A stretch of DNA of 64,000 nt from Micromonospora andamanensis. Lineage in GTDB: Bacteria; Actinomycetota; Actinomycetes; Mycobacteriales; Micromonosporaceae. The first letter of the stretch is position 1. Every line of letters begins with the position of its first letter. Where the stretch lies: contig NZ_BOOZ01000011.1 of NCBI RefSeq assembly GCF_016863495.1, forward strand, positions 124,001 to 188,000. Direction: 5' to 3'. The position numbers and the translations under genes are program-made. The notes beneath the pieces are model-generated. The model was not told the DNA's origin. It searched no databases and saw only the letters and a list, made by a program, of their open reading frames with translations. This document shows, one piece after another, positions 5,202 through 37,685 of the stretch.

Positions 5202-8051
5202 ATGTCCACCATGCGTACCACCCACCACCCCGCACGGTGGTCCACAAGCGCCTCAGCGCTGCTCCTCGTCGTCACAGCCGGCACCGTGGCCGTCGCCGGC
5301 CCGGCCCCGGCTCTCGCCCATCCGATCGTCGCCAGCGACTTCCAGCAGGTCACCCTCGCCAAGGGGCTGGCCGAGGTCGGTGAACCGATGAGCATCGCGG
5401 TGCTGCCGGACCGATCGGTTCTGCACACCGCCCGCAACGGCACGTTGCGTCGCACCGACGCCGCGGGCAACACCTCGGTGATCGCCAACATCCCGGTCTA
5501 CACCCACGACGAGGACGGGTTGCAGGGCGTCGGGGTCGACCCGAACTTCGCCACCAACCGGCACATCTTCCTCTACTACGCCCCGCCGCTGTCCACCCCG
5601 AGCGGCGACGCCCCGGCCACCGGCACCAGCTGGTCCGCCTGGCAGGGCGTCAACCGGCTGTCCCGGTTCACCCTCAACGCCGACTTCACGGTCAACCAGT
5701 CCAGCAAGGTCGACGTCCTCGACGTCGCCGCCGACCGGGGCATGTGCTGCCACGCCGGCGGCGACATCGACTTCGACGCCGCGGGCAACCTGTACCTGTC
5801 CACAGGCGACGACACCAACCCCTTCGACTCCGGCGGCTACTCACCGATCGACGAGCGGACCAACCGCAACCCGGCGTACGACGCGCAGCGCAGCGCGGCG
5901 AACACCAACGACCTGCGCGGCAAGATCCTGCGGATCAAGGTCAACGCCAACGGTTCGTACTCGATCCCGGCCGGCAACATGTTCGCCCCGGGCACGGCCG
6001 GCACCCGGCCCGAGATCTACGCGATGGGGCTGCGCAACCCGTTCCGGATGAGCGTCGACAAGGCCACGGGTGTGGTCTACGTCGGCGACTACGGGCCGGA
6101 CTCGGGTTCCACCTCCGCGCGCGGTCCCAGCGGTCAGGTGGAGTTCAACCGGATCACCTCGCCCGGCTTCTACGGCTGGCCGTACTGCACCGGCACCAAC
6201 ACCAGCAACGAGACGTACGCCGAGTGGAACTTCGCCAACAACACCGCCGGAGCGAAGTACAACTGCACCGGCGGCGCGACGAACAACTCGTTCCGTAACA
6301 CCGGCCTGACCACCCTGCCGGCCGCCAAGCCGTCCTGGATCCGCTACGCCGGCGACGCCGGCAGCCCGCCGGAGTTCGGCAGCGGTTCCGAGTCGCCGAT
6401 GGCTGGCCCGGTCTACCGGTACGACGCCGCGCTGAACTCGGCCACCAAGTGGCCGCAGAGCTTCGACGGGCTGTTCTTCGCCGGTGAGTTCGGCAGGGGC
6501 TGGATCAAGCCGATCCACATGAACGCGAACGGCTCCATCGCCAGCATCGACGGGTCCTTCCCGTGGAACGGCAAGCAGGTCATGGACATGGCGTTCGGTC
6601 CGGACGGCGCGCTCTACGTGCTGGACTACGGCACCGGTTTCTACAACGGTGATGCCAACTCCGCCCTGTACCGCTACGACTACGTCGGCGGCGGCAACCG
6701 GGCTCCGACGGCTGTGGCCTCGGCGAACCGGACCTCGGGCGTCGCCCCGTTGACTGTGAACTTCTCCTCGGCCGGGTCGTCCGATCCGGAGGGTGGGGCG
6801 CTCACCTACTCGTGGGCGTTCGGTGACGGCACCACCTCGACGGCGGCGAACCCGACCAAGACGTACAACGCCAACGGCAACTACACCGCCACCCTGACCG
6901 TACGCGACCCGCAGGGCGCCACAGGTACGGCGAGCGTACGGATCGGGGTCGGCAACACCGCCCCGACGGTCACCATCAACAGCCCCGGCAACGGCCAGCT
7001 GTTCAGCTTCGGCGACACCGTGCCGTTCAGCATCACGGTGACCGATCCGGAGGACGGCACCATCGACTGTTCCAAGGTCAAGATGACATACGTGCTGGGC
7101 CACGACAACCACGGTCACCAGATCACCTCGCAGAACGGCTGTTCCGGCTCGATCGCCGTGCCGGTCGACGGTGAACACGACGACGCCGCCAACATCTTCG
7201 GCATCTTCGACGCCGAGTACACCGATGCCGGCGGCCTGACCACGCACACCCAGCACACCCTCCAGCCGCGCAAGCGGCAGGCGGAGCACTACAAGAGCGC
7301 CTCCGGCGTCGACCCGTTCGACAAGGCGACAGCCGAGGGCGGCCGGACCGTCGGCAACATCAACAACGGTGACTGGATCGCGTTCGAGCCGTACCGGATC
7401 GGCAACGCCACCTCGTTCAGCGCCCGGGTCTCGTCGGCCGGCGCCGGTGGCACCCTCCAGGTGCGGGCCGGCTCGGCCACCGGCACGGTGCTCGGCTCGG
7501 CGACAGTGCCGGTCACCGGCGGTTGGGACACCTTCACCACTGTCACCGGCACCATCACCAACCCGCCCACCGGCACCACCACGCTGTACCTGACCTTCGC
7601 CGGTTCGGGCACCGGCCACCTCTACGACCTGGACTCGTTCTCCTTCACCACCGGCAGTGGTGGCACCACCAGAACCGGTCCGATCACCGGGCTTGGCGGT
7701 AAGTGCCTGGATGTGCGCGACGCGGCCACCGCCGACGGCACGCAGATCCAGATCTGGACCTGCAACGGCACCGCGGCGCAGACCTGGACGGTGACGCCGA
7801 ACTCGACGATCCGGGCGTTGGGCAAGTGCCTGGACGTCAACGCCGCCGCCTCGGCGGACGGTACCAAGATCCAGTTGTGGACGTGCAACGGCGGCGTCGC
7901 GCAGGTCTGGTCGGCGCAGTCCAACGGCACGTTGCGCAACCCGAACTCGGGCAAGTGTCTGGACGTGTCGAACAACAGTTCCGCCGACGGGCAGGCCGTG
8001 CACCTGTGGACCTGCCACACCAACGCCAACCAGCGCTGGGTCCTGCCCTGA
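5202..8051 (+). CDS. Secreted PQQ-dependent sugar dehydrogenase with PKD, CBM6-like and ricin-lectin domains
   Basis: A 949-residue exported protein. Residues 1-40 form a signal peptide ending ALAHP. About 41-495 is a soluble glucose/sorbosone dehydrogenase beta-propeller (VLPDRSVLHTARNG, HDEDGLQGVGVDPNF, GDYGPDSG, DGALYVLDYG). A PKD domain (NRAPTAVASANRTSG, AFGDGTTS) spans about 499-585, an Ig-like linker follows, a CBM6-like sugar-binding domain (RQAEHYKSASGV, NNGDWIAFEPYRI) spans about 690-814, and a ricin B-type lectin with three QxW-like repeats (QIWTC, QLWTC, HLWTC) spans 825-949. It likely oxidises a sugar or glycan-linked substrate outside the cell. ATG 5202 is chosen for the AGGAAGG ribosome site at 5183-5190; an ORF start at 5061 would place charged residues before the signal peptide. 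Confidence 0.9.
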   Translation: MSTMRTTHHPARWSTSASALLLVVTAGTVAVAGPAPALAHPIVASDFQQVTLAKGLAEVGEPMSIAVLPDRSVLHTARNGTLRRTDAAGNTSVIANIPVYTHDEDGLQGVGVDPNFATNRHIFLYYAPPLSTPSGDAPATGTSWSAWQGVNRLSRFTLNADFTVNQSSKVDVLDVAADRGMCCHAGGDIDFDAAGNLYLSTGDDTNPFDSGGYSPIDERTNRNPAYDAQRSAANTNDLRGKILRIKVNANGSYSIPAGNMFAPGTAGTRPEIYAMGLRNPFRMSVDKATGVVYVGDYGPDSGSTSARGPSGQVEFNRITSPGFYGWPYCTGTNTSNETYAEWNFANNTAGAKYNCTGGATNNSFRNTGLTTLPAAKPSWIRYAGDAGSPPEFGSGSESPMAGPVYRYDAALNSATKWPQSFDGLFFAGEFGRGWIKPIHMNANGSIASIDGSFPWNGKQVMDMAFGPDGALYVLDYGTGFYNGDANSALYRYDYVGGGNRAPTAVASANRTSGVAPLTVNFSSAGSSDPEGGALTYSWAFGDGTTSTAANPTKTYNANGNYTATLTVRDPQGATGTASVRIGVGNTAPTVTINSPGNGQLFSFGDTVPFSITVTDPEDGTIDCSKVKMTYVLGHDNHGHQITSQNGCSGSIAVPVDGEHDDAANIFGIFDAEYTDAGGLTTHTQHTLQPRKRQAEHYKSASGVDPFDKATAEGGRTVGNINNGDWIAFEPYRIGNATSFSARVSSAGAGGTLQVRAGSATGTVLGSATVPVTGGWDTFTTVTGTITNPPTGTTTLYLTFAGSGTGHLYDLDSFSFTTGSGGTTRTGPITGLGGKCLDVRDAATADGTQIQIWTCNGTAAQTWTVTPNSTIRALGKCLDVNAAASADGTKIQLWTCNGGVAQVWSAQSNGTLRNPNSGKCLDVSNNSSADGQAVHLWTCHTNANQRWVLP
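7677..8048 (+). repeat. Ricin-lectin coding repeat, copy 1
   Basis: The DNA encoding the lectin domain of the PQQ dehydrogenase is nearly the same as 9471-9844 in the next gene. A stretch around 7773-7841 matches base for base, including synonymous positions, so the two domains share recent ancestry or undergo gene conversion. Confidence 0.85.
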
Positions 8052-17678: not shown

Positions 17679-17755
17679 GGGGCGGTAGCTCAGCCGGTTA
17701 GAGCAGGGGACTCATAATCCCTCGGTCGCGGGTTCGAGTCCCGCCCGCCCCACCA
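17679..17755 (+). tRNA. tRNA with CAT anticodon (Ile2 or elongator Met)
   Basis: GGGGCGG (17679-17685) pairs with CCGCCCC (17745-17751); anticodon loop CTCATAA gives CAT at 17713-17715; the T arm is GCGGG-TTCGAGT-CCCGC; discriminator A and an encoded CCA end the gene. CAT can belong to elongator Met or to lysidine-modified Ile2; the bases after the anticodon stem (GGTCGC) resemble Ile2 but I cannot decide. The 3' part is the attachment site of the element to the right; the gene remains whole. Confidence 0.93.
17710..17755 (+). repeat. attL, 46-bp direct repeat in the tRNA 3' half
   Basis: The 46 bases from the last base of the anticodon stem's 5' arm through CCA are identical to 37640-37685. 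Bases before and after differ, which defines the repeat length. The left copy completes the working tRNA gene. Confidence 0.95.
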
Positions 17756-19348
17756 TTAAGAAGCGCGCTTGACCTGGTGTTTCTTGCCGCTCTTGCGATC
17801 TTTTCCACTGCTCGGCGTCGATGCAGAGGGCCGCTGTGAGCCCGACGTGAGCCCGGCGGATCGCCTGGAGCCCTGACGGGGGACCAGGCGGACGGCTGCC
17901 TCGGCTGCTTCCCGTGCCAGCTCCGGCAGAACCGAGGTGTAGGTGTCGGACGTCAGTGAGATCGAGGAGTGGCCCAGCATGTCCTGGACCACTTTCATCT
18001 CGGTGCCGGCCGCGAGAGCGATCGTGGCAGCGCCGTGGCGTAGATCGTGCAGGCGGATCGGCGGCAAGCCCGCCTTGCGTACCAGTCGATCGAAGTAGTC
18101 CGACAGCCAGTTGGGCTCGACCCACTCACCGGTCGGCCGGGTGAACAGACGCCCACTCTCTACCCATGCCGCTCCGGCTTCCTCCTGAGCCTTCCGCTGT
18201 CGTTTGAGGTGGCGCTTGGCCACCTTCAGGCTGTCGCGATCCAGGGCGACGATGCGGTTTCCGGCATCGCTCTTCGGCGCGTTCTCCTCGATCTCTCCGC
18301 TGATCTCCACGAGTTGCGTGGCAACTGTGAGGGTCTTGCCCTTGAGATCCAGGTCTTCCGGCCGCAGGCCGCACGCCTCGCCTCTGCGCAGCCCTCGAAA
18401 CGCGATCAAATGAAAGAGCGCGTACAGCTCGTCGTCGGCGATGAAGTCGAGGAAGGCCCCTGTCTGTTCGGGAGTCCACACCATGACGGGCGATGGCCTT
18501 TCGTTGGTGGCTTGCCACCGCGCAACACGCTCGTCTGTCCACACCATTGCCCTCGGCCGACGAACGGGGTCAAGCTCAACGTGAGCCGCCGGATTGAAGG
18601 TGATCAGCTCTTGCGTGATGGCGTCGTTCAAGGCGGCCCGCAGCGTCGCCCGGATGTGCCGTCGCGTCGTTGGCCCCACGGTACGGCGGAACGGCGGCAT
18701 TTCAGCGATGGCGGCACGCGCGGCGCGGCGGCGCTCACGCCCCTTGAGCGACTTCAGTTCGTCGATCGCGGCACGCCGTAGGGCGTTCGCTTCCTCGATC
18801 TCGATGTTCCGCTCAACGATCGCGTTGAACATCTCTGTCAGGTGGGACACGCGCAGCCGGTCAAGACGGATATTGCCAATGCGCGGCTTGAGGTGGAGTC
18901 GGATATCCCGGCCGTACCGGTTGATGGTGTTGCGACGAATCTTCCGGCCAGCAAGCCAGGTGTCGAGCCATTCCCCGACCGTGATGCGTGCGGTCAACGA
19001 CTGCCCGCTACGGAACTTGCGCCGCGTTTCCTCCAGGTCAGGAAGCGGCTCCCGGTCGGACGCCACGCGCTCCAGCAGATCCCCCATGCGCTGGCGACCG
19101 TCGACGTCATCGGCGTCGGGTATGGCCAGCAGCGCGCGGACGGCATCCAGATCCGCTTGGGCCTCCGTGGCGGTCGAGTAGCCCGACCGGCGGAACGTAC
19201 GACGTTCGCCCTCGGCGTTCGATGGAAGCTCTTGGCGTACGCCCCAGGTGCCGTGTCGCCGCTGGTTGAGCTTGGGGCACGATTGCCCGTACTGCTTGCC
19301 GGTCAGCGGATCTCGACAGGCGCAGCGGCGGAATACTGATCCTCTCAA
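17756..19348 (-). CDS. int: Tyrosine site-specific integrase of the AICE
   Basis: A 530-residue phage-type integrase. The N-terminal AP2-like/core-binding part includes ITVGEWLDTWLAGRKIRRNT; the catalytic residues are R in AFRGLRRGEACGL (near 317), the HxxR box HDLRHGAAT (near 434), H in MLGHSSISLTSD (near 460) and the nucleophile Y in SDTYTSVLPEL (near 470). The tail is basic. It recombines attP with the tRNA attB. The start codon is TTG at 19346-19348, supported by AAGGAGG four to five bases upstream; the stop TAA directly abuts the CCA of attL. The ribosome site lies next to the palindromic promoter at 19367-19398, so control may be shared. Confidence 0.93.
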   Translation of the reverse strand: MRGSVFRRCACRDPLTGKQYGQSCPKLNQRRHGTWGVRQELPSNAEGERRTFRRSGYSTATEAQADLDAVRALLAIPDADDVDGRQRMGDLLERVASDREPLPDLEETRRKFRSGQSLTARITVGEWLDTWLAGRKIRRNTINRYGRDIRLHLKPRIGNIRLDRLRVSHLTEMFNAIVERNIEIEEANALRRAAIDELKSLKGRERRRAARAAIAEMPPFRRTVGPTTRRHIRATLRAALNDAITQELITFNPAAHVELDPVRRPRAMVWTDERVARWQATNERPSPVMVWTPEQTGAFLDFIADDELYALFHLIAFRGLRRGEACGLRPEDLDLKGKTLTVATQLVEISGEIEENAPKSDAGNRIVALDRDSLKVAKRHLKRQRKAQEEAGAAWVESGRLFTRPTGEWVEPNWLSDYFDRLVRKAGLPPIRLHDLRHGAATIALAAGTEMKVVQDMLGHSSISLTSDTYTSVLPELAREAAEAAVRLVPRQGSRRSAGLTSGSQRPSASTPSSGKDRKSGKKHQVKRAS

Positions 19349-19659: not shown

Positions 19660-19857
19660 TTCGAGGATCGCCGGCACGGGGACGACGTAGTTTCGCCCGA
19701 CGCGGAGCACCCGCACGGGGAACTGTCCACGCTTGGCGAGTGCGTACGCCTTGCTCCGGCCGATCCCGAGGATCGCTCCGGCTGTTTCTACGTCCGTCGT
19801 CAAGCCAAGTGCACGGACGGCTTCGATAGTCCAAGTGCTGTCAATAGTCGTGCTCAT
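19633..19857 (-). CDS. xis: Excisionase/HTH DNA-binding protein (Xis)
   Basis: A 74-residue protein with a MerR/excisionase-like winged HTH: TTDVETAGAILGIGRSKAYA then GQFPVRVLRVGRNYVVPVPA, a typical helix-turn-helix plus wing of AICE Xis proteins. ATG 19857 is preferred to 19881 because AGGAG lies eight bases upstream. The first 17 bp overlap the 3' end of rep, so rep and xis are probably co-transcribed, while int has a separate ribosome site and TTG start. Xis bends att DNA with Int during excision. Confidence 0.88.
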   Translation of the reverse strand: MSTTIDSTWTIEAVRALGLTTDVETAGAILGIGRSKAYALAKRGQFPVRVLRVGRNYVVPVPAILELLGVRAVT

Positions 19858-21271
19858 TGCATGTCTCCTGATGAGTGTCAACGCTCATGCGAGCGTCATG
19901 GGCGGCTTCGCGGGCGGTCCGTAGGTCGTCCGCGATGCCGTCGGCGAACATGGCTTGTCCGGGGGTGTGGCCATTGCCGGTGTAGGTCCAGTCCTTGTCG
20001 GTGATGGTGTCGATGTCGTCGGACGTTTCCTCCTGGTCGTTGTGGTCGCGGCGGTGTTGTTCACGGGCAGCGCGCAGTGCCGTGTAGGTGGTCGAGTAGG
20101 CGCGGCTTTTGGTGGCGATGTGGCCCCGGTAGCCGAGCTGGTGCGCCCACCGCCGCAGGTTCAGCGACTTGTATTCGGCGCGGCTGGCGAGGGTCCAGCA
20201 GATGCGGATGAGGGTGCGGGCGTGATCGGTGACGGGAAGGACGGAGATGGTGATGGCGTCGCGGATGGGCCGGTCCACGGTGATGCCGGCGACCTCAGGT
20301 TTCGTGACGTACTTGGCGATGTAGGAGGCCACGGCCCGCTCGGTGAGATCGTCGCCGTGGTGGCCGGGCAGGATGGGCCGGATGTCGAGCTGCGCGCCGA
20401 ACCGCAGGATGGTGTCCAGGCCGGGTACGGCCAGGTGCACTCGGCGGGTGGCGGTGCGGATGGTCCGCACCAGCAGTGCCAGGGTGGCCCAGGCCGGGGG
20501 TGGGGCGTCGGGGGTGGGGCCGTCGAAGCGCATGACGGCGTGGAAGTGGACCGATCCGCGCCGCTGGTATTCCGCGACTTTGGCGTAGGCGACGCGGACC
20601 GCGTTGCGGACGGCGGTGCGGGAGATGCCCCGGGTGGTGGCGATGGCTTCGTAGAGGTTGCGGTGCAGGCGTTGCCACAGGTCGCGGGTGTGGGCGTTCC
20701 ACAGCACCGCGGCCGGGTAGTCGTAGCAGTCGGCGCAGAGTGGGGCACCGGTGAGCGGGTCGCCGGAGGTGTGTCGGTCGAGGCACCACAGGGGCCGGCC
20801 GTGGCCGCAGACGAGGCCCCGCCTGCCGCGTGAGGGTCGGCAGGGTTTGTCGGTGGTGTGCCGGTGGACGGGGCCGAAGCTGGGCGCGGTGAATGTGACG
20901 AACACGCGCGGATGGCTTCTCACGGTGTCGGGGAGGCCCTTGCCGCCGGCGAGCCCGGACACGACGAGGTGGTACGTGTCGCCCTGGTGCAGACGGGCGC
21001 ACGGTTCGCAGCGCGACTGCCGCCGGTTGCCGCAGGCGATGGTGAGCCGCCCGTGCGGCTGCTCGGCCGATGTGAAGGAGTGCACCAGGCGACCGGTAGA
21101 GGCGTCCACGGTCAAGGTGTGGCCGACCAGGTGCACCGGGTGTTGGCAACCGCCGATGTGGCGCACACGGGCCAACCACGCCCGGAAGTCGGGGTGCGTG
21201 GCGGTGGACAGGATCTCTCGGTCAGTGAACGACAGGCCCTCGTCAGGCCCGCCGGGGGCGGGGGTGGGCAT
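19841..21271 (-). CDS. repSA: RepSA-type rolling-circle replication initiator
   Basis: A 476-residue protein. The HUH metal motif is GSVHFHAVMRF near residue 242 (HFH), and the catalytic Tyr region SYIAKYVTKPEV lies near 317. N-terminal Cys/His groups (CGNRRQSRCEPCARLH, PLCADCYDYP) form probable zinc sites, as in pSAM2-type Rep proteins. It nicks the double-strand origin to start rolling-circle replication of the excised element. ATG 21271 follows GAGGAGCAGAGGACC. The 141-bp gap to traB carries another strong ribosome site (see findings). The origin itself was not located. Confidence 0.92.
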   Translation of the reverse strand: MPTPAPGGPDEGLSFTDREILSTATHPDFRAWLARVRHIGGCQHPVHLVGHTLTVDASTGRLVHSFTSAEQPHGRLTIACGNRRQSRCEPCARLHQGDTYHLVVSGLAGGKGLPDTVRSHPRVFVTFTAPSFGPVHRHTTDKPCRPSRGRRGLVCGHGRPLWCLDRHTSGDPLTGAPLCADCYDYPAAVLWNAHTRDLWQRLHRNLYEAIATTRGISRTAVRNAVRVAYAKVAEYQRRGSVHFHAVMRFDGPTPDAPPPAWATLALLVRTIRTATRRVHLAVPGLDTILRFGAQLDIRPILPGHHGDDLTERAVASYIAKYVTKPEVAGITVDRPIRDAITISVLPVTDHARTLIRICWTLASRAEYKSLNLRRWAHQLGYRGHIATKSRAYSTTYTALRAAREQHRRDHNDQEETSDDIDTITDKDWTYTGNGHTPGQAMFADGIADDLRTAREAAHDARMSVDTHQETCNEHDY

Positions 21272-21412: not shown

Positions 21413-22918
21413 TCAGGCGGCGGGTGGGGTGAGGCCGGGCAGGACCGGCGCCAGGTGTGCCGTGGCCGCGATGACGGCCGCCAACTGCTCCGGCGACAGG
21501 TAGACCGAGCGGGCACGGATCCAGCCCGCGTGGTCGGCGGTGGTGACCGCGATGCCCTTCACGGCGGGGTCGATCTGCTGGGCGGCTTCCACCGCGTCCG
21601 GGTAGAGGTCGCCCAAGGTCATGTCCACGGTTTCCTCATCGTTGACCCGCAGACAGATCCGCCCGGCGAGCTGGGCACGCAACGCGGTCACGCCGGGACC
21701 GAGGTCGGAGCCGACCCGTTGCCCGGCCACGACCAGGTGCACGCCGAGGGCCGCGCCGAGCTGAGCCAATCGCAACAGGTTCGTTGTCGCCCGCAGCGCC
21801 TCGTCCTTGTCCGCACGGGAGGCGACCAGGTACAGCTCTGCCAACTCGTCGACGATCACGACCACCGGCACCGGCCGCACCTCGGGCGCGAGCTGCCAGA
21901 TGTTGCGCGCCCCGTGCTGGCGGCACAGGCTCATCCGCCGCTGCGTTTCCGCGACGAGTGCGGCCAGGACGTCCGCCGCTTCCGCCCGGTCGGTAGCCAG
22001 AGCGGACAGCCGGGGTGCGTGGGGGGCCAACTCCATGCCGCCCTTGCAGTCGATCCCGACCAGCGCCACCGGCCGCGCCGCCCACCGCGCTACGGCGGCG
22101 TTGATCAGCGTGGACTTGCCTGACTGCGTGGCCCCGGTGATCAGCCAGTGCGGGAAGGTCACCAGGTCGACCACCCACTGCTGTCCGTCCTCCCGCTGCC
22201 CCACATCGGCCGCCAGGTCCGCCGGCACCGCCACCGCCGAGGCAAGCAGTTCGATGGCCTCCGAGGGGCAGGAGGCCATCGCGGTCTCCTTCGGTGACGG
22301 TCCGGTCGCCCAGGCCGCCGCCTCCGTCCGCTGCGCGGTGAGGGGATCGGCGGTGAGGATGGTCAACCGGATCCGGCCGCGTAGTCGTGCGTCGACCCGC
22401 ACGGCGTGCACACCCCAGGCGTGTGCCATCGCCTCCGCCGCGTTCACGAACGGCTCCGGGACCTGCCCGGGATGCAGCAGGATCACCGCTGTCGCCCCGA
22501 AGGAGCGGGGTCGGATACGCCGCAGCAACGGCAGGACCGGCATGATCAGCCGACCCTTGACCAGGAGTGGCCCGAGTTGCCCGGTGGTGGGCCGGTCGGT
22601 GCCGGTCAACTGCGCGTTGAGGCACAGGTGCCGCCAGGAGCGGCGCATCCGCATGCGCAGCAGCGCAAACCCGAACAGGTACCAGTGGGCGCGGGGTGCC
22701 AGCTGGCGCAGCAGCCGCGACACCACGGCCAGCGCCACGACGACGGCCACCAGGACCACGACGGCGGTGATGATCGTGGGTAGCCACGCCTGAAGCTGGT
22801 CGAGGGTGACCCCCGGGAAGCGCGGCACGAAGCCGGGAATCCCGGGGGCCATCGACGGTGACGGCGTAGGCGTCGGCACTGCGGCCGATGCCGCCGGCAT
22901 CACTACTGCGGCGATCAT
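21413..22918 (-). CDS. traB: TraB/FtsK-SpoIIIE-family DNA translocase for conjugative transfer
   Basis: A 501-residue protein. An N-terminal region with a transmembrane helix (WLPTIITAVVVLVAVVVALA, about residues 45-66) is followed by the motor domain: Walker A GATQSGKST near residue 261, Walker B VVVIVDELAELY near 351, and HLVVAGQRVGSD as a sensor-like segment. In AICEs this single hexameric ATPase moves double-stranded DNA between mycelia after recognising clt repeats. ATG 22918 overlaps the stop of the Pra-like gene (ATGA). The clt site could not be identified by eye. Confidence 0.92.
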   Translation of the reverse strand: MIAAVVMPAASAAVPTPTPSPSMAPGIPGFVPRFPGVTLDQLQAWLPTIITAVVVLVAVVVALAVVSRLLRQLAPRAHWYLFGFALLRMRMRRSWRHLCLNAQLTGTDRPTTGQLGPLLVKGRLIMPVLPLLRRIRPRSFGATAVILLHPGQVPEPFVNAAEAMAHAWGVHAVRVDARLRGRIRLTILTADPLTAQRTEAAAWATGPSPKETAMASCPSEAIELLASAVAVPADLAADVGQREDGQQWVVDLVTFPHWLITGATQSGKSTLINAAVARWAARPVALVGIDCKGGMELAPHAPRLSALATDRAEAADVLAALVAETQRRMSLCRQHGARNIWQLAPEVRPVPVVVIVDELAELYLVASRADKDEALRATTNLLRLAQLGAALGVHLVVAGQRVGSDLGPGVTALRAQLAGRICLRVNDEETVDMTLGDLYPDAVEAAQQIDPAVKGIAVTTADHAGWIRARSVYLSPEQLAAVIAATAHLAPVLPGLTPPAA

Positions 22919-26525: not shown

Positions 26526-26731
26526 AAATCACAGCTTGGCACACTGCTAGTTAGCCTCGCGAGAGTTGACCTGGTGCCATTCCCGACTAGAGCCGTGACG
26601 CGCTGAGGCGGCTTGCTCTGTCGTCTGTTCGCCGATCGGGCACGACGCGGGTTGCTTCAGCCGGCCGACGACGCTGACGCGCGGCTTGGGCGAGCCTGGG
26701 TAACTGGGGAACACGCCGCTAGGCTCATCGA

Positions 26732-27376
26732 GTGCCTGACAGGAAACAAACGCCGACGCACGTCCTGACAGCTGAAGCCGTGCGCTGGGGGATCGAAGCC
26801 CTCGCGTCTCAGCGGCTCCACCCGACGTTCGTGATGTATCTACACCTGCGCACGCAGCAGCGCGCAGGGAAGCTGAGCGAAGCATCCGCGTCGTCGGATG
26901 AGTTGCTTGCCCTAATTAGAATGCCTGGTAATCCAACGAAGCCCTACTACTTCCCTCTTATAGATCGCGGGCAGCGGCGGCCGGGGGAACTACTGTCTAG
27001 CTTCTGGCGCGCGGGAAACATCCCTGGCAGCTGGTCGCCAGGGTCGATCTCCCGCCTGAAGCACGGCGGATGGATGGGGCGCTCGACGGGCGAGTATTTT
27101 CTTCCCCGGGATCACGTCGGGCGAGCGCTGAGCGAACTGCTTTACGATGTTCCGGTCTCAGCGCTTGCACTCGGGGCCTATTTTCTGCGCAACGACGGCT
27201 TCATCATCGCAGGCACCCCTGGTCCTAGCGATCTAATTGAAGCGTTCCGGTTGAGATTCGATTATCCCGATGATGCGCAGGAGGAATTCGCAATCCTATT
27301 CAATGTCGATTTGCCCACCAATGTTGATTTCGACTGGTTTGCACAATCAGATCCACCCGTCACCCTTAATTCTTGA
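26732..27376 (+). CDS. Unidentified 214-residue first gene of the McrBC-type operon
   Basis: Starts with GTG 26732 (MPDRKQTPTHVLTAEAVRWG). I do not recognise a family. The N-terminal half is helical and basic, with MPGNPTKPYYFPLIDRGQRR and GSISRLKHGGWMG, which could bind nucleic acid. The C-terminal half has FRLRFDYPDDAQEEFAILFN, a more acidic beta-type region. It is 12 bp upstream of the McrB-like ATPase on the same strand and shares its lower GC content, so it belongs to the same acquired module. Because that ATPase lacks the usual DNA-reading N-terminal domain, this protein may supply target recognition; that is inference only. Confidence 0.75.
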   Translation: MPDRKQTPTHVLTAEAVRWGIEALASQRLHPTFVMYLHLRTQQRAGKLSEASASSDELLALIRMPGNPTKPYYFPLIDRGQRRPGELLSSFWRAGNIPGSWSPGSISRLKHGGWMGRSTGEYFLPRDHVGRALSELLYDVPVSALALGAYFLRNDGFIIAGTPGPSDLIEAFRLRFDYPDDAQEEFAILFNVDLPTNVDFDWFAQSDPPVTLNS

Positions 27377-27388
27377 TTTGGGGGGCCA

Positions 27389-28333
27389 ATGCTTGAAAAG
27401 TTAATTCCCGGAGTTCGAACTCTCACCGCCGACGACTTGGGTATCGGCTCCCGGGCGAAGGCGGCGAGCAGTCACGCCTCCTCCGCTCCGGACGCGCCAG
27501 AGATTACTGGAGATCATCCTCGCGTGCAGGAGATCGCCCGCCTCGCCAGCATCTATGGCGGGGTTATTCTCACCGGCCCCCCAGGAACCTCAAAGTCATT
27601 CTTCGCGCACTCTGCGGCGCAAGCGCTTACTGGAGGCGACAAGAAGCGCTGCGCATTCGTTCAGTTTCACGCCAGCTACCAGTACGAAGACTTTATGCTT
27701 GGACTGTCCCCTAACCAAGGTGGATTTGGTTTTAAGAAGGGTCCGTTCCTCAGGCTTGCGGACGCCGCGGATAAAGATCGAGGCAACACGTACGCCCTGG
27801 TCATCGACGAGTTGTCCCGCGCGGACGTCGGGAGGGTATTTGGCGAAGCCCTGACCTACGTCGAACGCAGCAAGCGCGAACTTCCATTCACTATTGCTAA
27901 TGGTGAAGAGATTAGAGTTCCGTCCAATCTAGTAATCCTCGCGACAATGAATCCATTCGACCGAGGAGTGGACGAAGTCGACGCCGCCTTCGAGCGACGC
28001 TTCGCCAAAGTTTCGATGGATCCGGACAAGGCCGTCCTACTGGAAATGCTCGATGACAACGGGATGGAAGAGAAGCTCAAGGCCGGGGTTGTCCGATGGT
28101 TTGGGCGGATTAACGGGCATGCGCGGAAAAATCCGGCCGCCGCAGTAGGACATGCCTACTTTTCTACCGCAACAGACGAGGCGTCCCTCTGGGACATTTG
28201 GGAGTATCAGCTGAAGTACCTAGTACAGCGGGCATTCCGCCGCGACGAGAATACCCGCGCAGATCTGGAGACGGCGTGGGCCCACGTTTTCTCGGTGCCG
28301 GAACCCGTAGCCGCCCAGACCGGCCAGCCGTGA
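27389..28333 (+). CDS. mcrB: McrB-like AAA+ GTPase/ATPase
   Basis: A 314-residue AAA+ protein with the McrB signatures: Walker A GPPGTSKS at 63-70, QYEDFMLGL near 99-106, Walker B LVIDELSRADVGRVFGEAL from 138, the McrB-specific MNPFDR at 187-192 and arginine finger ERRF at 202-205. In McrBC enzymes it forms hexamers that hydrolyse GTP and drive the nuclease McrC. Only about 50 residues precede the AAA+ core, so the N-terminal DNA-binding domain of classical McrB is missing. GGGGGG precedes ATG 27389. The stop overlaps the mcrC GTG by 4 bp. Confidence 0.9.
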   Translation: MLEKLIPGVRTLTADDLGIGSRAKAASSHASSAPDAPEITGDHPRVQEIARLASIYGGVILTGPPGTSKSFFAHSAAQALTGGDKKRCAFVQFHASYQYEDFMLGLSPNQGGFGFKKGPFLRLADAADKDRGNTYALVIDELSRADVGRVFGEALTYVERSKRELPFTIANGEEIRVPSNLVILATMNPFDRGVDEVDAAFERRFAKVSMDPDKAVLLEMLDDNGMEEKLKAGVVRWFGRINGHARKNPAAAVGHAYFSTATDEASLWDIWEYQLKYLVQRAFRRDENTRADLETAWAHVFSVPEPVAAQTGQP

Positions 28334-29751
28334 CCCGAGCCGCCGAAGTGACTGAAGCCGCCGCGGATCTGATAGTCGTGGAGTGCGCCGAACACGACAA
28401 CATCGAGATCGATGCCGCGCTGTGGCTCAGCGGTGACCACCATTTGGTCCTGAACCCGGAGATTGACGGACGCGATATTCTTCGCGCGAACTTCCGCAGA
28501 GGTGTGCTGCGACTTCAAGCCACGTCATACGTCGGTGTAATCCCTCTGAACGACCGGGTGATTGTTCGAGTTAAGCCTCGCGTCCCGATCGCTAACTTGA
28601 CGCGTATGGTGATCGAGACTGGGCACGACGTATTGGCTCTGTCCGCCTTCCGCGAGTACTCTAGTCGCGGCAGTGCCGACGACTGGGCTATGGACGTCTA
28701 CGCCGACGCGCTGCTCGACTACCTGGACGAGCTGCTCGACGCCGGCATGATGCGGTCCTATGAGCGCCGGGACGATGAGGGCTGCTTCCCGCACGGCCGC
28801 ATCGACTTTACTCGGACGATGCAGCGCTTCGCTGCGCGCGGCGTGCCGAATAAAGCCACTTATTCATGGTTCGAGCGCACCATCGATATTCCGGCGAACC
28901 GCTGCATCAAATCTGCGATGCAGGCGGTCCACGCTCATCTTTCGAAGTCGAAGGCGAAGCCGCGCAAGGGCGACCGCGCAAAGATTACCCGGCTAGCTGG
29001 ACAACTGCTCGCCTTCGAAGAGGTCGAAGAGGACACAAGCTACCAGTTCCTCGATGACTCATTAGTGCTTGGTTTGACGCCTCTTCCCGAAGCGCGCGCC
29101 TATTATCGGTCGGCGCTAGACCTGTCGATCGTTATCCTCCGTGGCGTCGGTATTGCGCTTGAACTCGGCGGCACCGACGTGCGATTAAGCTCCCTTCTAA
29201 TCGACACCAACAAGCTGTTCGAGAATTTTGTTCGTGTCAGCTTATCCAAATCTGCGGCAAGACAGGGTTGGCCGATGGAGGTCCTCGACGGGAATTCCGA
29301 GGGACGAGTCGATCTGTACGATGTTCCAGATCCTCTTCCTTCCCCACTCGGGAAGCCGATTAATGCACTCGCTAGCCTTGACCCGGGCAAGGCGCAGCCC
29401 GACGTTGTCCTACGAGGTCTCGACGGCAGCTTCCGACTCATTGCCGAAGTCAAGAATACAGTTCACGGCAAAAATGCGAGATTTGACGACGTCCTACCCG
29501 AGCGTGATGAGGTCGAGCAGGCAGTCACATACGCCCTACGCTATGGTCTCGACTTCACCGTACTAATCCACCCTTGGTTCAAGGGTACGAAGGGACTTGT
29601 ATACGTCGGTCGAGTACGCTCGGTCGACGTATACGACTACAGGCTTGATTTGTCTACGGAAGACAGAACTGATGCAGCACTGGCCGACATGGCAGCGACC
29701 ATGGCCGGCCTCGCCGGACTAGCCATTGGTCAGCCGCCGACGTCCGCCTGA
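28330..29751 (+). CDS. mcrC: McrC-like restriction endonuclease subunit
   Basis: A 473-residue protein. The N-terminal domain (VGVIPLNDRVIVRVKPRVPI) and the middle helical part match the 5-methylcytosine-restriction McrC family, and the C-terminal PD-(D/E)xK nuclease core is visible as P357-D358 (QPDVVLRG) and E373-V-K375 (LIAEVKNTVHG). It cuts DNA when activated by the McrB-like motor. GTG 28330 overlaps mcrB's stop; the long frame upstream of that GTG is excluded since it would overlap mcrB. The last 22 bp overlap the tail of the methyltransferase gene on the other strand. Confidence 0.9.
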   Translation: MTRAAEVTEAAADLIVVECAEHDNIEIDAALWLSGDHHLVLNPEIDGRDILRANFRRGVLRLQATSYVGVIPLNDRVIVRVKPRVPIANLTRMVIETGHDVLALSAFREYSSRGSADDWAMDVYADALLDYLDELLDAGMMRSYERRDDEGCFPHGRIDFTRTMQRFAARGVPNKATYSWFERTIDIPANRCIKSAMQAVHAHLSKSKAKPRKGDRAKITRLAGQLLAFEEVEEDTSYQFLDDSLVLGLTPLPEARAYYRSALDLSIVILRGVGIALELGGTDVRLSSLLIDTNKLFENFVRVSLSKSAARQGWPMEVLDGNSEGRVDLYDVPDPLPSPLGKPINALASLDPGKAQPDVVLRGLDGSFRLIAEVKNTVHGKNARFDDVLPERDEVEQAVTYALRYGLDFTVLIHPWFKGTKGLVYVGRVRSVDVYDYRLDLSTEDRTDAALADMAATMAGLAGLAIGQPPTSA

Positions 29752-30881
29752 TTCATGAGAGGTACTAGATCGACGCCGACTGCGTCGCGGCCTTCCACAT
29801 TCGCGGTCTTCAAAGTCGTGCCAGTGCCGGCGAAGGGGTCAAGGACGACGCCGCGAGCGGGTGTTCCGTGTCCGCAGTCAGTCCAGCCAACTGTGCGCTT
29901 TTTGGCGAAAGTAAATTCACGGAAGTAGCCACCAAGAACCGCCTTTGCTTCCATGGCAAGTCTCTGCACTTCGAGGCTGTTACGGCCGGTCCCACTCTGA
30001 AACTTGGTGGCTTTGCCGACATCGGAGACGCCGAACGCCTGGATTGCACGGATATGATCTGCCGTCAATTTGTGTTCTTCGGCCAACTCCATTGCCCGTT
30101 TGGCTTGCGGTCGCTTGGGATCGAGTTCAGACGTGCGCTCGATCACGCGACGGCGCGGCACGTTGCAGGTCGCGCAGACCTGAGCGGGCGCGGCTAGTTG
30201 AATCGCGCGGCGAACTATCTCACGTGGGAACGGGGCAAGGTGCTCACCCATGTTTCGCTCCGGATTGATTATCCAAACGTCACCCGGATTCGCGCCATTA
30301 CCGACTGACTCCGAGTACCCGACAAGGTCATAATAGTAGTCTGCGGACGGAGTAAGGTGGATGATGTACTCGTGGCGGTTGGCAAGTCGGTTCTTTGCCG
30401 GGTCTGGCATGCCAGACTCCTTGGCCCAAATGATCCTGTTGCGAACTAGCCAGCCGCCGCTGTTGACAGCGTCCCACTCAATGCGGCCGGGAATGCCGAG
30501 CAGTGACTTCTTAAAATAGGTGTCACCGACGTTTAGGAAGACCGAGCCGTGCGGCCGGAGAACGCGTTTCCACTCTTCAAGGCATTCCAGTATGGCGTGG
30601 ACATACGCCTGGGGTGTCGCCTCTTGCCCGATCTGATCCGTGTGCCCGTAGTCCCTTTTGTTCCAGTATGGCGGCGATGTGACAATCAGGTCGACTGAGT
30701 TCTCGGGCAGGCCGGTCTTGCGGGCATCGCCGGACGTGAAGGTGAGCTGAGGCTCGAAAAGCTCGCGCTCCCAGTCTTCAAGCTGGGTGACGGACACAGC
30801 GCCGAGGTTTGGTCGGGCTGCTGCGGGCTCCGATCCGGTCTCCGGTGCGGGCACCGGAGACGTCCTGGAGTGGCGCTTCAT
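29730..30881 (-). CDS. DNA methyltransferase, beta-class, N4-cytosine type likely
   Basis: A 383-residue enzyme. Motif IV is TSPPYW at 68-73 (the SPPYW form is typical for N4-cytosine methylation), and the SAM-binding motif I is LDPFAGTGTT from 347 near the C-terminus, giving the beta-class order. Between them is an insertion of about 110 residues that opens with a CxxC pair (C236, C239) and closes with a CxH near 338, probably a zinc-bound target-recognition region. ATG 30881 is chosen for AGAAGGAAGGG upstream; the frame could begin at 31001. Tail-to-tail with mcrC, it probably protects host DNA from the McrBC-type nuclease, as in LlaJI-like systems. Confidence 0.88.
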   Translation of the reverse strand: MKRHSRTSPVPAPETGSEPAAARPNLGAVSVTQLEDWERELFEPQLTFTSGDARKTGLPENSVDLIVTSPPYWNKRDYGHTDQIGQEATPQAYVHAILECLEEWKRVLRPHGSVFLNVGDTYFKKSLLGIPGRIEWDAVNSGGWLVRNRIIWAKESGMPDPAKNRLANRHEYIIHLTPSADYYYDLVGYSESVGNGANPGDVWIINPERNMGEHLAPFPREIVRRAIQLAAPAQVCATCNVPRRRVIERTSELDPKRPQAKRAMELAEEHKLTADHIRAIQAFGVSDVGKATKFQSGTGRNSLEVQRLAMEAKAVLGGYFREFTFAKKRTVGWTDCGHGTPARGVVLDPFAGTGTTLKTANVEGRDAVGVDLVPLMNQADVGG

Positions 30882-31423: not shown

Positions 31424-32830
31424 GTGCTTCCGATGACTCTGCAAGAGATCAGGGCCGCGATCGGCGGGGCAGTACACGACGCGGCCGAAGGCGTTACCGT
31501 CACCGCGCCCGTCGTGTTCGACAGCCGTTGCGTCGAGGCCGGCGGCATGTTCGTGGCGCTGCCCGGTGAGCGCGTCGACGGGCACGACTACGCTGCCCAG
31601 GCCATCGAGGCCGGCGCGGCAGCGGTGCTGGCGTCACGGCCGGTCGGAGTACCCGCCGTGGTCGTCGAGGACGTACCCACCGCCTACGGGCGACTCGCCC
31701 GCGCAGTGGTGGACCGGCTGCCGCAAACCACCGTGATCGGGGTGACCGGCTCGGTGGGCAAGACGTCGACCAAGGACATCCTCGCCCAGATGCTGCCCTC
31801 GTGGGGTGCCACGGTGGCCAACCGGGCGTCGAACAACAACGAGCTTGGGTTGCCGTACACGGTCACCCGCGCCACCGCCGACACCCGCTATCTGGTGTTG
31901 GAGATGGGCGCACGCGGCATCGGGCACGTGGCGTACCTGACCCGGATCGCTCCGCCCACCGTCAGCGTCGTAACCCGCGTCGGACACGCGCACCTTGGCG
32001 AGTTCGGGTCGGTGGAGAACATCGCCCAGGCCAAGGGTGAGATCGTGGAAGCGCTGCCCGACGCCCGCGACGGCGGGTTGGCGGTGCTCAACGGCGACGA
32101 CGCGTTGGTGGCCGCTATGGCGAGCCGTACCCGCGCCCGAGTGTTGACCTACGGCATCGACAATCCGGCTGACGTGCGCGCCGAGCGCGTGACTGTGGAT
32201 GAGTTGGGCCGCGCCAGCTTCCGGCTGATGCACGACGGCCAGGCCGCCGAGGTGCGGTTGCGCCTCTACGGGCTGCACCAGGCGTCCAACGCGCTGGCCG
32301 CCGCCACGGTTGCCCTCGGTCTGGGGCACCCGATCGAGGCGGTAGCCGAGGCAGTGTCACAAGCCGAGGCGGTGTCGCCGGGTCGAATGCAGGTCAGCAC
32401 CCGCGCCGACGGGGTGACCGTCATCAACGACGCCTACAACGCTGCGCCTGACGCGATGCGGGCCGCGTTGCGCGCCTTGCACGCAATGGCCGGCGACGGT
32501 CGGCGGGCGGTCGCGGTGCTCGGGGAGATGGCCGAGCTGGGCGAGCACGCCGCACAGGTACACCGCGAGATCGGGCAACAGGTGGCCGAGATCGGAGCCG
32601 GGTGGCTGGTCGCCATCGGCGGAGCCGACGCCGAGCAGTACGCCAGCGGAGCAGCCGGCAACGGCACGGCCGTAGACCGGGCGGGCAACGTGGCCGAGGC
32701 GTGGGAGTTGCTGCGCGACGGGTTGCGGCCGGGCGACGTGGTGTTGGTCAAGGCAGCCAACAGCGCCGGGCTCCTCGCGCTCGCGGACAAGCTCGTCGAG
32801 GAACCCGGCGCTGTCACCGCCCAGGCGTAG
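31424..32830 (+). CDS. MurF-like UDP-MurNAc-tripeptide D-Ala-D-Ala ligase paralogue
   Basis: A 468-residue Mur ligase of full MurF length. The N-terminal domain begins MLPMTLQEIRAAIGG, the ATP loop is GVTGSVGKTSTKDIL near residue 108, the UDP-substrate region has NRASNNNELGLPYTVTR and EMGARGIGHV, and the C-terminal domain holds INDAYNAAPDAMRAAL near 335 (MurF usually NDAYNANPxS). MurF joins D-Ala-D-Ala to the UDP-MurNAc-tripeptide in the cytoplasm. A chromosome should already have one in its dcw cluster, so this AICE copy is extra and may act on a different dipeptide or non-peptidoglycan substrate. It converges on a MurC-like gene with a 3-bp gap. Confidence 0.9.
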   Translation: MLPMTLQEIRAAIGGAVHDAAEGVTVTAPVVFDSRCVEAGGMFVALPGERVDGHDYAAQAIEAGAAAVLASRPVGVPAVVVEDVPTAYGRLARAVVDRLPQTTVIGVTGSVGKTSTKDILAQMLPSWGATVANRASNNNELGLPYTVTRATADTRYLVLEMGARGIGHVAYLTRIAPPTVSVVTRVGHAHLGEFGSVENIAQAKGEIVEALPDARDGGLAVLNGDDALVAAMASRTRARVLTYGIDNPADVRAERVTVDELGRASFRLMHDGQAAEVRLRLYGLHQASNALAAATVALGLGHPIEAVAEAVSQAEAVSPGRMQVSTRADGVTVINDAYNAAPDAMRAALRALHAMAGDGRRAVAVLGEMAELGEHAAQVHREIGQQVAEIGAGWLVAIGGADAEQYASGAAGNGTAVDRAGNVAEAWELLRDGLRPGDVVLVKAANSAGLLALADKLVEEPGAVTAQA

Positions 32831-32833
32831 GAC

Positions 32834-34279
32834 TCACGCGGACAGCGCGACCTCGGTCCGGCTGCTCAGGGCGTCAAGGATCGCCGCACCGTAGCCGGTT
32901 ACGTCACCGGTGCCCATCGTCAGCACCACGTCACCGCGGCCAGCCATCCGCCCGATGAGCCGCGCCGCCTGGCCCGGGCCGAGCGGCAGGCAGTAGTCGC
33001 CCTCGCGCAGCCGGGCCATGATCGCGGAGGCGTCCGCCACGGGTCGACCGGTCGGCACCGTGCCGTGCACATCCAGGAGCAGGACGTGATCGGCCTTGTC
33101 CGCCAGAACGCCGCCGATGCGTTCCCCGAACGCCAGGACGCGGGCGTGCCCGGACGGCTGGAACACCACGAACACCCGACCCCGCGCCAGGGTGCGCGCG
33201 GCATCCAGATCGGCGGCGATCTCGTGCGGGTGATCGGCGTAGGAGTCGATCACCGTCACCCCGGCCCGGGTGTCGATGTGCTCGAACCGCCGACGCACCC
33301 CGGCGAAAGTGCACACTGCCCCGGCCACGTCGCCGGGGTCCAGGCCCAGCGCCGCCGCGCACGCAGTGGCCGCCGCCGCGTTGTCCAGGTGGTGCGCCGC
33401 CGGAGTCGGCAGGGTCAGCCGGACCTCCGTTCCGTTCGGCATCCGCACCGTCGCGGACGCACTCCAGCCCTCGGTGTGCACGTCCAACAGCCGCACGTCC
33501 GCTGTCCGGTCCCGGCCATAGCGCAGTACCGTCAGGTCGGGACGCTCGTCGGCGATCACGTCGGCGGCCACCGTCGCCCCCACGCAATCCGCGTTGACGA
33601 TCAGGAACCCGTCGGGGGCGACCCGGCCGCCGAACCCGACGTAGGCACGCAGAACCTCGGCGTGGCTGACGAAGTTCTCCGGGTGGTCGTCGGTCACATT
33701 AGTGATGACCGCGATCGACGGAGTGAGAAAGTGGAACGAGCGGTCCGACTCGTCCGCCTCCGCCACCAACAGCCGGGACGCGCCGAGGTGGGCACCCGAG
33801 CCCGCCCCGGTCACGTCGGCACCGATCAGGTAACTCGGGTCCTGACCAAGCGTGCGCAGGATGTGAGCGAGCATGCCCGCCGTGGTGGACTTGCCGTGCG
33901 ACCCGGACACCGCCACCAGCCGCCGCGCGGCGGCCAACACGTCGAGGACTTGCGCCCGGTGCACCACCGGAATGCCCGCGACCCGGGCCGCACGCACCTC
34001 CGGCGCGTTCTGCGCAACGGTGGTGTAGACGACGCAGCTAGCGCCCTTGATGTACGCCGGATCGTGCCCGACCTGCGCTCGGACGCCGGCCGCACGCAGC
34101 GCCGCCAGCGTGGCCGAGTCACGTAGATCGCTGCCGCTGACCTCGTGACCCAACTCTGCCAGCAGCCGCGCCAGGCCGGACATCGCGCAACCGCCGATGC
34201 CCACGAAGTGCGGACGGGACAGGTCAATCGGACCGGTGTACGCCTCGATTGTCGGGTTACCAGTGATCGTGTCGGTCAT
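32834..34279 (-). CDS. MurC-like UDP-MurNAc amino acid ligase paralogue
   Basis: A 481-residue Mur ligase. The N-terminal UDP-binding region FVGIGGCAMSGLARLLAELG, ATP loop VSGSHGKSTTAGMLAH near 124, ADESDRSFHFLTPS and the C-terminal FQPSGHARVLAFG match MurC. The usually conserved DDYxHHPTEI motif reads DSYADHPHEI near 343: the second Asp and the first His are changed, the HP.E part kept. This suggests altered substrate handling or reduced activity. ATG 34279 is chosen for AAGGAG upstream; a longer frame begins 34324. Together with the MurF-like gene it forms an unusual convergent cargo pair. Confidence 0.9.
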   Translation of the reverse strand: MTDTITGNPTIEAYTGPIDLSRPHFVGIGGCAMSGLARLLAELGHEVSGSDLRDSATLAALRAAGVRAQVGHDPAYIKGASCVVYTTVAQNAPEVRAARVAGIPVVHRAQVLDVLAAARRLVAVSGSHGKSTTAGMLAHILRTLGQDPSYLIGADVTGAGSGAHLGASRLLVAEADESDRSFHFLTPSIAVITNVTDDHPENFVSHAEVLRAYVGFGGRVAPDGFLIVNADCVGATVAADVIADERPDLTVLRYGRDRTADVRLLDVHTEGWSASATVRMPNGTEVRLTLPTPAAHHLDNAAAATACAAALGLDPGDVAGAVCTFAGVRRRFEHIDTRAGVTVIDSYADHPHEIAADLDAARTLARGRVFVVFQPSGHARVLAFGERIGGVLADKADHVLLLDVHGTVPTGRPVADASAIMARLREGDYCLPLGPGQAARLIGRMAGRGDVVLTMGTGDVTGYGAAILDALSSRTEVALSA

Positions 34280-34638
34280 GGTGCCGTGTCTCCTTCTGTG
34301 TAAAAGCTGATGGGTTCGTGCCATGAGCTGACGTGCTAGAGGGATTCACTCCTTCCACTCGTGCGACTCCTTGCACGCGGCCGGGTTGACCCCGAGTCAC
34401 CATCTCGACCGCGCGAGTCCAATCGATCTGTGTCGGGCCATCCGACACTCGTGTGGCCGAAGCAGACGGTGGAGCGGCCCGAAGCGACGGCAGGTAGCCC
34501 GCAGGCGGCACCGTCGGCGAAGGGGTCAGGCGCTTGCGCCTACGCCCTGACCGGCATGCCGGACAGACGCACGCCCGGCCGCCCGGGAAACGGCGTGACC
34601 GATGCGGACGGTGCCGAGGACTGGTCAGGCCCGCGTCC
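34280..34638. other. 359-bp gap upstream of the MurC-like gene
   Basis: Contains the leftward promoter of the murC-like gene, preceded on that strand by the end of the XRE gene. No further gene, terminator or repeat that I can support. Confidence 0.5.
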
Positions 34639-37639: not shown

Positions 37640-37685
37640 ACTCATAATCCCTCGGTCGCGGGTTCGAGTCCCGCCCGCCCCACCA
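37640..37685 (+). repeat. attR, second copy of the 46-bp direct repeat
   Basis: Identical to 17710-17755. Here only the 3' half of the tRNA is present (no D arm or 5' acceptor strand), so it is a recombination scar, not a tRNA gene. It marks the right end of the AICE. Confidence 0.95.

Follow-up and report, generated by a model that had tools for sequence, protein, structure and literature searches.

A group of four genes was analysed in a 64,000-nucleotide stretch of the 7.08-Mb genome of Micromonospora andamanensis (contig NZ_BOOZ01000011.1, positions 124,001 to 188,000). This whole stretch is called the window here, and all coordinates refer to it. The genes, at 26732-30881, encode a small protein that we call P1, a McrB-like motor, a McrC nuclease partner and a DNA methyltransferase (MTase). 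An earlier reading made from the letters alone (the sequence-only reading) had described a split McrBC-type set with a tail-to-tail SPPYW methyltransferase on an actinomycete integrative and conjugative element (AICE). This description holds. All four open reading frames (ORFs) are open, mcrC and the convergent MTase gene overlap by 22 bp at their 3' ends, and attachment-site (att) repeats are present. The four genes are as follows.

26732..27376, + strand: P1, 214 aa, GTG start, without a known family; proposed trans-acting, target-reading N-terminal subunit of the McrB motor
27389..28333, + strand: McrB-like AAA+ motor, 314 aa, without an N-terminal domain; motifs GPPGTSKS, VIDELSR, MNPFDR and ERRF
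28330..29751, + strand: McrC nuclease partner, 473 aa; PD358 ... (E/D)373-x-K375
29730..30881, - strand: beta-class amino-DNA methyltransferase, 383 aa; TSPPYW near the N-terminus and DPFAGTGTT near the C-terminus; predicted to make N4-methylcytosine (m4C)

The McrB-like protein matches Pfam AAA_5 (E 8.3e-19) and the E. coli McrB structure 6hz4 (E 1.6e-30). Walker A (GPPGTSKS), Walker B (VIDELSR), the MNP(F/L)DR signature and the arginine pair (ERRF) are found in 6/6 rows of the McrB alignment (A3), from which the Phytohabitans protein, with its broken frame, was excluded. The GTG start of mcrC at 28330 overlaps the mcrB stop codon. McrC matches Pfam McrBC (PF10117, E 1.3e-18) and no solved McrC chain in a sequence search, and it retains the PD-(D/E)xK nuclease that had been read in it, with PD358, E/D373 and K375 conserved in 7/7 rows. 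The MTase matches Pfam N6_N4_Mtase (PF01555, E 5.8e-37) and has a close PADLOC model (MTase_II PDLC03316, E 3.7e-185), whereas P1 has none. Its start at 30881 was chosen from the alignment, a longer frame being open to 31001. The order of its motifs, TSPPYW, then the central region, then DPFAGTGTT, is that of the beta class. The SPPY motif predicts m4C, and so the sequence suggests this product.

The motor is shorter at its front than its relatives. Its AAA match starts at residue 46-58, compared to residue 212 or later in 24 other McrB proteins of the order. These 24 come from 25 other McrBC loci of the order and are encoded by ORFs of 470-988 aa; the remaining locus (L079) gave no match. The window McrB is thus truly without an N-terminal domain, in agreement with the sequence-only reading. 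P1, encoded directly ahead of it, had been left without an identity, and Pfam, PADLOC, NCBIfam and PHROGs gave nothing for it at E <= 1. The Actinokineospora P1 gave two PHROG matches (E 0.09 and 0.13). Against solved structure chains P1 found nothing significant (best E 1.6 and 0.24).

The four genes recur as a unit. Mutually independent searches with P1, McrC and the MTase were run over 397 genomes of the order. P1 was present in five of these, and the MTase at E <= 1e-60 and a close McrC at E <= 1e-81 were found in the same five; 22 further genomes had a McrC match, in each case a distant one (best 9.9e-11). Scanning 84,980 species with the P1 alignment returned six loci, namely four already-known genomes, Antrihabitans stalactiti and Phytohabitans flavus. 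All seven loci, counting the window, were found via P1, and P1 is present there by construction, while mcrB, mcrC and the MTase gene stand alongside it in identical order and orientation in 7/7. The spacing between P1 and mcrB is -13 to +14 bp throughout, and the 3' overlap of mcrC and the MTase gene is 22 bp in six loci and 71 bp in Actinokineospora. In the Phytohabitans flavus copy (L038, 6633-7606), mcrB is spread over two frames. The Actinokineospora proteins are 35% (P1), 38% (McrC) and 72% (MTase) identical to those of the window. Of the four proteins, the MTase has changed least (72-91% identical to the window copy), and its conservation against the divergence of P1 and McrC suggests that a single motif may have been kept. 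Among 396 genomes of the phylum, the P1 search found the window's own genome and one stop-bearing fragment (E 2.4e-4), which was not counted. Plasmids, phages and IMG/VR searched with P1 or its first profile yielded nothing; the IMG/VR copies described below were reached solely through motor and MTase searches. P1 of the window and P1 of M. mirobrigensis differ by a nonsynonymous rate (dN) of 0.126 and a synonymous rate (dS) of 0.96, showing that P1 evolves under purifying selection. Since P1 is under selection and the operon recurs, the arrangement is more than chance.

The key evidence on what P1 is comes from two viral contigs. The first (L112, IMGVR_UViG_2799112336_000002) was found by scanning IMG/VR with MTase and motor alignments. 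Its ORF at 5374-6894 encodes 506 aa with no internal stop, in which a P1 homologue lies in frame ahead of McrB: the P1 profile (A2) matches residues 4-193 (E 5.8e-24) and the motor profile residues 208-505 (E 1.9e-102). An hhalign comparison of A2 with the fusion gave a probability of 98.8% and E 1e-16 over 187 columns. McrC and a convergent MTase lie downstream. In the second contig (L113, IMGVR_UViG_648276728_000003), the MTase, P1, motor and McrC genes all run in one direction, and P1 is a separate 221-aa ORF that is 26% identical to the window protein. Among 1430 proteins and ORFs, some of them repeated, A2 matched at E <= 1 only L113 and L112/L102, which are one contig. Six motors were matched in IMG/VR. 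Both of those at 44-46% identity carry P1; among the four at 24-26%, P1 was not found in L114 and L116. P1 is therefore not absent from homologous operons, an absence that would have counted against the sequence-only reading, and searches made without it, using McrC, the MTase or the IMG/VR motor, led to it. Because P1 is fused to the front of McrB in L112, it occupies the place of the McrB N-terminal domain, and the P1 of the window is very likely the missing front end of its motor.

Motor trees place the fused and split forms together. In the second tree, the split and fused P1 copies form one clade (99/97), which is sister to fused MTase-AAA-McrC operons of the alphaproteobacterial type (100/99). 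The fused L112 copy is nested among the split ones with a support of 91/86, below the starred level. The closest sampled motors outside the P1 clade are in such MTase-AAA-McrC operons on three alphaproteobacterial plasmids and two viral contigs, and their AAA proteins have about 240 additional N-terminal residues. This tree left out six LlaI/LlaJI rows and T4_L078, T4_L080 and T4_L082, and it carries a warning that long branches meet at the deepest join. In the wider first tree, which held 14 of the 24 McrB proteins of the order, the LlaI- and LlaJI-type motors were distant from the P1 clade (100/100). From this placement, the split in the P1 clade seems to be separate in origin from that of LlaI.

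Within P1, residues 60-112 are the most conserved (19/53 invariant vs 34/161 elsewhere in 7 rows, Fisher p 0.043), with boundaries that were picked after structural models had been viewed, as were those of residues 113-205. The first stretch has a net charge of +5 to +8 and the second of -7 to -13, each in 7/7 rows. When L112 and L113 were added to the alignment, 8 of the 18 invariant residues fell within 75-105. The basic middle may be what touches DNA, and the acidic half may face the motor. Residues 115-192 or so weakly resemble the N-domain of McrB proteins paired with 5-methylcytosine (m5C) methyltransferases; the hhalign score of 22.0 beat 60/60 column shuffles, at a probability of 2% and E 0.024. 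This weak likeness would fit a shared adapter. A P1 profile widened with L112 and L113 also matched the N-domain of a Ruminococcus phage McrB (hmmsearch E 0.0037).

A relation between P1 and the N-domain that is fused to the motor in the alphaproteobacterial operons was considered and rejected. The two look similar by eye, but hhalign gave E 0.29 and 0.079, and column-shuffled controls scored equally high in 84/150 and 8/60 cases. In a post hoc correlation of hydropathy profiles, which we do not rely on, five fused N-domains ranked within the top 0.7-8% when set against 300 control segments; their correlation of charge was unremarkable. As a separate observation, a possible -10 box (TAGGCT, in window 26720-26732) lies six bases ahead of the P1 GTG and is retained in M. 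mirobrigensis, and three further copies have TACGCT near the P1 start. A -10 box this close to the start codon would fit a leaderless mRNA.

The position of P1 in the place of the McrB N-domain, together with the methyltransferase, most likely makes a modification-blocked McrBC with a free reader subunit. We read the four genes as a mobile restriction-modification system of this kind, in which P1 is the detached DNA-reading N-terminal part of McrB, and we put the probability of this reading at roughly three in four. In such a system, the MTase would mark host DNA at a short motif. P1 would bind the same motif where it is unmodified, methylation blocking the binding, and P1 bound to the motif would load the McrB AAA+ ring. 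The ring would then hydrolyse nucleotide and bring in McrC to cut. What we infer is the reading of DNA by P1 and its block by methylation, the identity of the product as m4C, and the restriction of phage by the set. The sequence-only reading had placed target recognition on a separate subunit. That proposal is well supported, though not proven, by the L112 fusion and the co-occurrence in 5/397 genomes.

Several observations weigh against this reading. Neither the libraries nor the structure searches, the latter made with poor models, linked P1 to a DNA-binding family or fold: two AlphaFold2 models from 7 rows had mean predicted local distance difference test (pLDDT) values of 59.7 and 62.0, and they left the middle of the window protein, at about residues 49-122, without resolved structure. 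Foldseek with these poor models found nothing at E <= 0.001, and none of seven chains re-aligned to them with VIA-align reached Z 2. In the sister operons, the N-domain fused to the motor has no significant similarity to P1. The MTase also travels without P1, as relatives of 49-73% identity on two contigs (L101 and L103) and three plasmids. SPPY is a prediction of m4C, with N6-methyladenine (m6A) as the alternative. The available portions of PMC3874153 describe the case of MspJI, in which an adjacent methyltransferase is no proof of a modification-blocked enzyme.

The alternative that survives best is that P1 serves the McrB ring as a subunit for assembly or coupling, or acts as a first-in-operon regulator, and that specificity lies elsewhere, for example in McrC. 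The likeness of residues 115-192 to the m5C-paired N-domain could be that of a shared adapter, and this half of P1 is acidic. Yet conservation and basic charge are both highest in the middle of P1, and the four-gene unit showed no second candidate for a reader. In size, P1 also exceeds typical controller proteins. We regard this explanation as unlikely. A modification-dependent (Type IV) McrBC that stands beside a methyltransferase by chance is a good deal less probable still. Its motor and nuclease do belong to the McrBC family, and close homologues of the MTase occur without McrBC, but all seven actinobacterial loci (found via P1) contain the MTase, as do L112 and L113, and no other gene of the set is as well conserved. 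Moreover, none of the 25 other McrBC loci of the order carries this MTase at E < 1e-5, other kinds of methyltransferase not having been looked for. Finally, it is very improbable that the set on the AICE has decayed or lost its activity, since the four window ORFs are open with intact catalytic motifs and the family is under purifying selection, although the frame of mcrB is broken in Phytohabitans.

The occurrence of the MTase outside the unit includes phages. Proteins of the Mycobacterium phages Dulcie and Parliament (MK494116.1 and OK040791.1) are 72.5% and 72.2% identical to the window MTase over 92% of its length, and these are the only two of 42 phage records at E <= 1e-30 to exceed 60% identity. 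The annotation around the Dulcie gene shows two methylases in the replication region. This MTase is a candidate counter-defence that may shield the phages from systems such as the present one. On the IMG/VR contig L101, which at 53970 bases has the length of Dulcie, this 72-73% identical MTase lies at 6001-7080, and the profiles of P1, the motor and McrC found no match in the 13-kb stretch around it. L103 has a 57% identical relative without P1, McrB or McrC matches nearby, and the three plasmids have relatives of 49-58% without nearby matches or annotations of these genes. Two of these plasmids encode MTases that are 58% identical to the window's, among unnamed neighbour genes and with no annotated McrBC: that of Streptomyces halstedii (L047, 6004-7161) and one of Haloprofundus (L048, 5641-7005). 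Other restriction partners may use an MTase of this kind there. In Ruminococcus phage NatCom_2329 (L088, 1961-6126), genes for a DNA methyltransferase, a fused McrB and a McrC-like protein stand in a row; the methyltransferase has a PCQPF motif, which we take to be of the m5C type.

The restriction genes are cargo of the AICE, since they are located between two 46-bp att repeats together with genes for an integrase, an Xis-like helix-turn-helix protein, RepSA and an FtsK-type protein. The features of the element are as follows.

17679..17755: tRNA-Met, with the 17710-17755 repeat at its end
17710..17755, + strand: att repeat in tRNA-Met, 46 bp, exact copy of 37640-37685
17756..19348, - strand: tyrosine integrase of the AICE (PF00589, E 2.5e-21)
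19841..21271, - strand: RepSA replication initiator, pSAM2 type (PF20199, E 6.6e-146)
21413..22918, - strand: FtsK/SpoIIIE-type protein, probably the transfer protein (PF01580, E 1e-27)
37640..37685, + strand: second att repeat, 46 bp, exact copy of 17710-17755

With its tRNA att repeats, integrase, RepSA and FtsK-type protein all present, the element is a 20-kb pSAM2-like AICE. The stretches analysed around the six other copies of the four-gene module contained no relatives of the window's AICE genes. The G+C content (GC) of the module is 0.587, that of the rest of the AICE 0.682 and those of the flanks 0.714 and 0.703. The lower GC noticed in the sequence-only reading is real, while its interpretation as a sign of recent acquisition is not supported by GC alone. 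The six other copies have GC values of 0.558-0.646, and 5/6 of them are also AT-richer than their surroundings. A low GC thus belongs to the module itself and does not show when it arrived. The AICE carries two further cargo genes, at 31424-32830 and 32834-34324, which lie tail-to-tail and have Pfam Mur_ligase domains. Judged by eye, one is MurF-like and the other MurC-like.

McrBC machines that have been studied well carry the reader as a covalent part of the motor subunits in their ring. With fused and split forms of one reader at hand, the number of readers per ring and whether they can be swapped become directly testable. The analysis also offers a likely role for the unannotated P1 family, whose window member matched nothing in four libraries, and a candidate motif common to the MTases of the window and of Dulcie and Parliament. 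A wider proposal, which we hold tentatively and at slightly under even odds, is that P1 is a new class of portable reader, acting in cis (L112) or in trans (Actinobacteria, L113), that the motor could be re-aimed by swapping the 214-residue subunit, and that actinophages have answered with a matching methyltransferase. The swapping of HsdS in Type I systems would be analogous.

Known McrB proteins read DNA through N-domains of the SRA, YTH and EVE types, or B3 in LlaJI, according to the available portions of PMC12707154, PMC7680126 and PMC1459862, and the literature in the same partial form sets the nucleotide (GTP or ATP) specificity of McrB outside the AAA core. The window differs from typical McrBC in that the DNA-reading domain is not fused to McrB, as it is in L112, and from Type IV systems in that the MTase, presumably cognate, adjoins McrBC in 7/7 loci. 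The motif NPFD of the window McrB is of the NxxD form, whereas CoCoNuTs are defined by NxD together with long coiled coils, as given in the available text of PMC11090510. That text calls NxxD McrB proteins with associated methyltransferases prevalent, defers the details to a later paper, and mentions no detached reader for those branches. The titles and abstract openings of open-licence papers also gave no such reader, in searches not all of which were aimed at it.

Operons on plasmids of Roseibium (L050), Sphingobium (L051) and Mesorhizobium (L052) and on the viral contigs L055 and L056 likewise combine an amino-methyltransferase with McrC. They differ in having a fused N-domain of about 240 aa without detectable similarity to P1, and the three plasmids also in their methyltransferases, which are 30-33% identical to that of the window, and in having the genes in one direction. 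LlaJI is alike in that a McrBC-like nuclease acts at an unmodified site beside methyltransferases, the McrB-like R1.LlaJI binding its own unmodified site (available portions of PMC1459862); in contrast to the separate P1, its B3 reader is fused to the motor R1. It also has two m5C methyltransferases, while the window has one beta-class amino-methyltransferase of the N6_N4 type.

A Lactococcus plasmid locus (L095) looks like LlaI, encoding a 252-aa protein, a 337-aa AAA protein with the P-loop at its very start and a 464-aa LlaJI-family nuclease, with AbiA downstream. Its motor is far from the P1 clade (100/100), and no similarity was found between its 252-aa and 413-aa proteins and P1, or between any of its non-motor proteins and the window McrC. 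Its annotated methylase pieces are adenine methylases, unlike the predicted m4C enzyme here. BsuMI uses m5C. The PF10117 profile matched 1/14 control genomes and cannot reach LlaI or BsuMI. As far as the available portions of PMC1459862 go, LlaI and BsuMI are three-ORF cassettes with small McrB-like proteins of 337 and 343 aa, and like the window they combine a small McrB without an N-domain, a separate ORF and a McrC-like nuclease. With these three-gene cassettes as precedents, the four-gene set is a variant of a kind already known.

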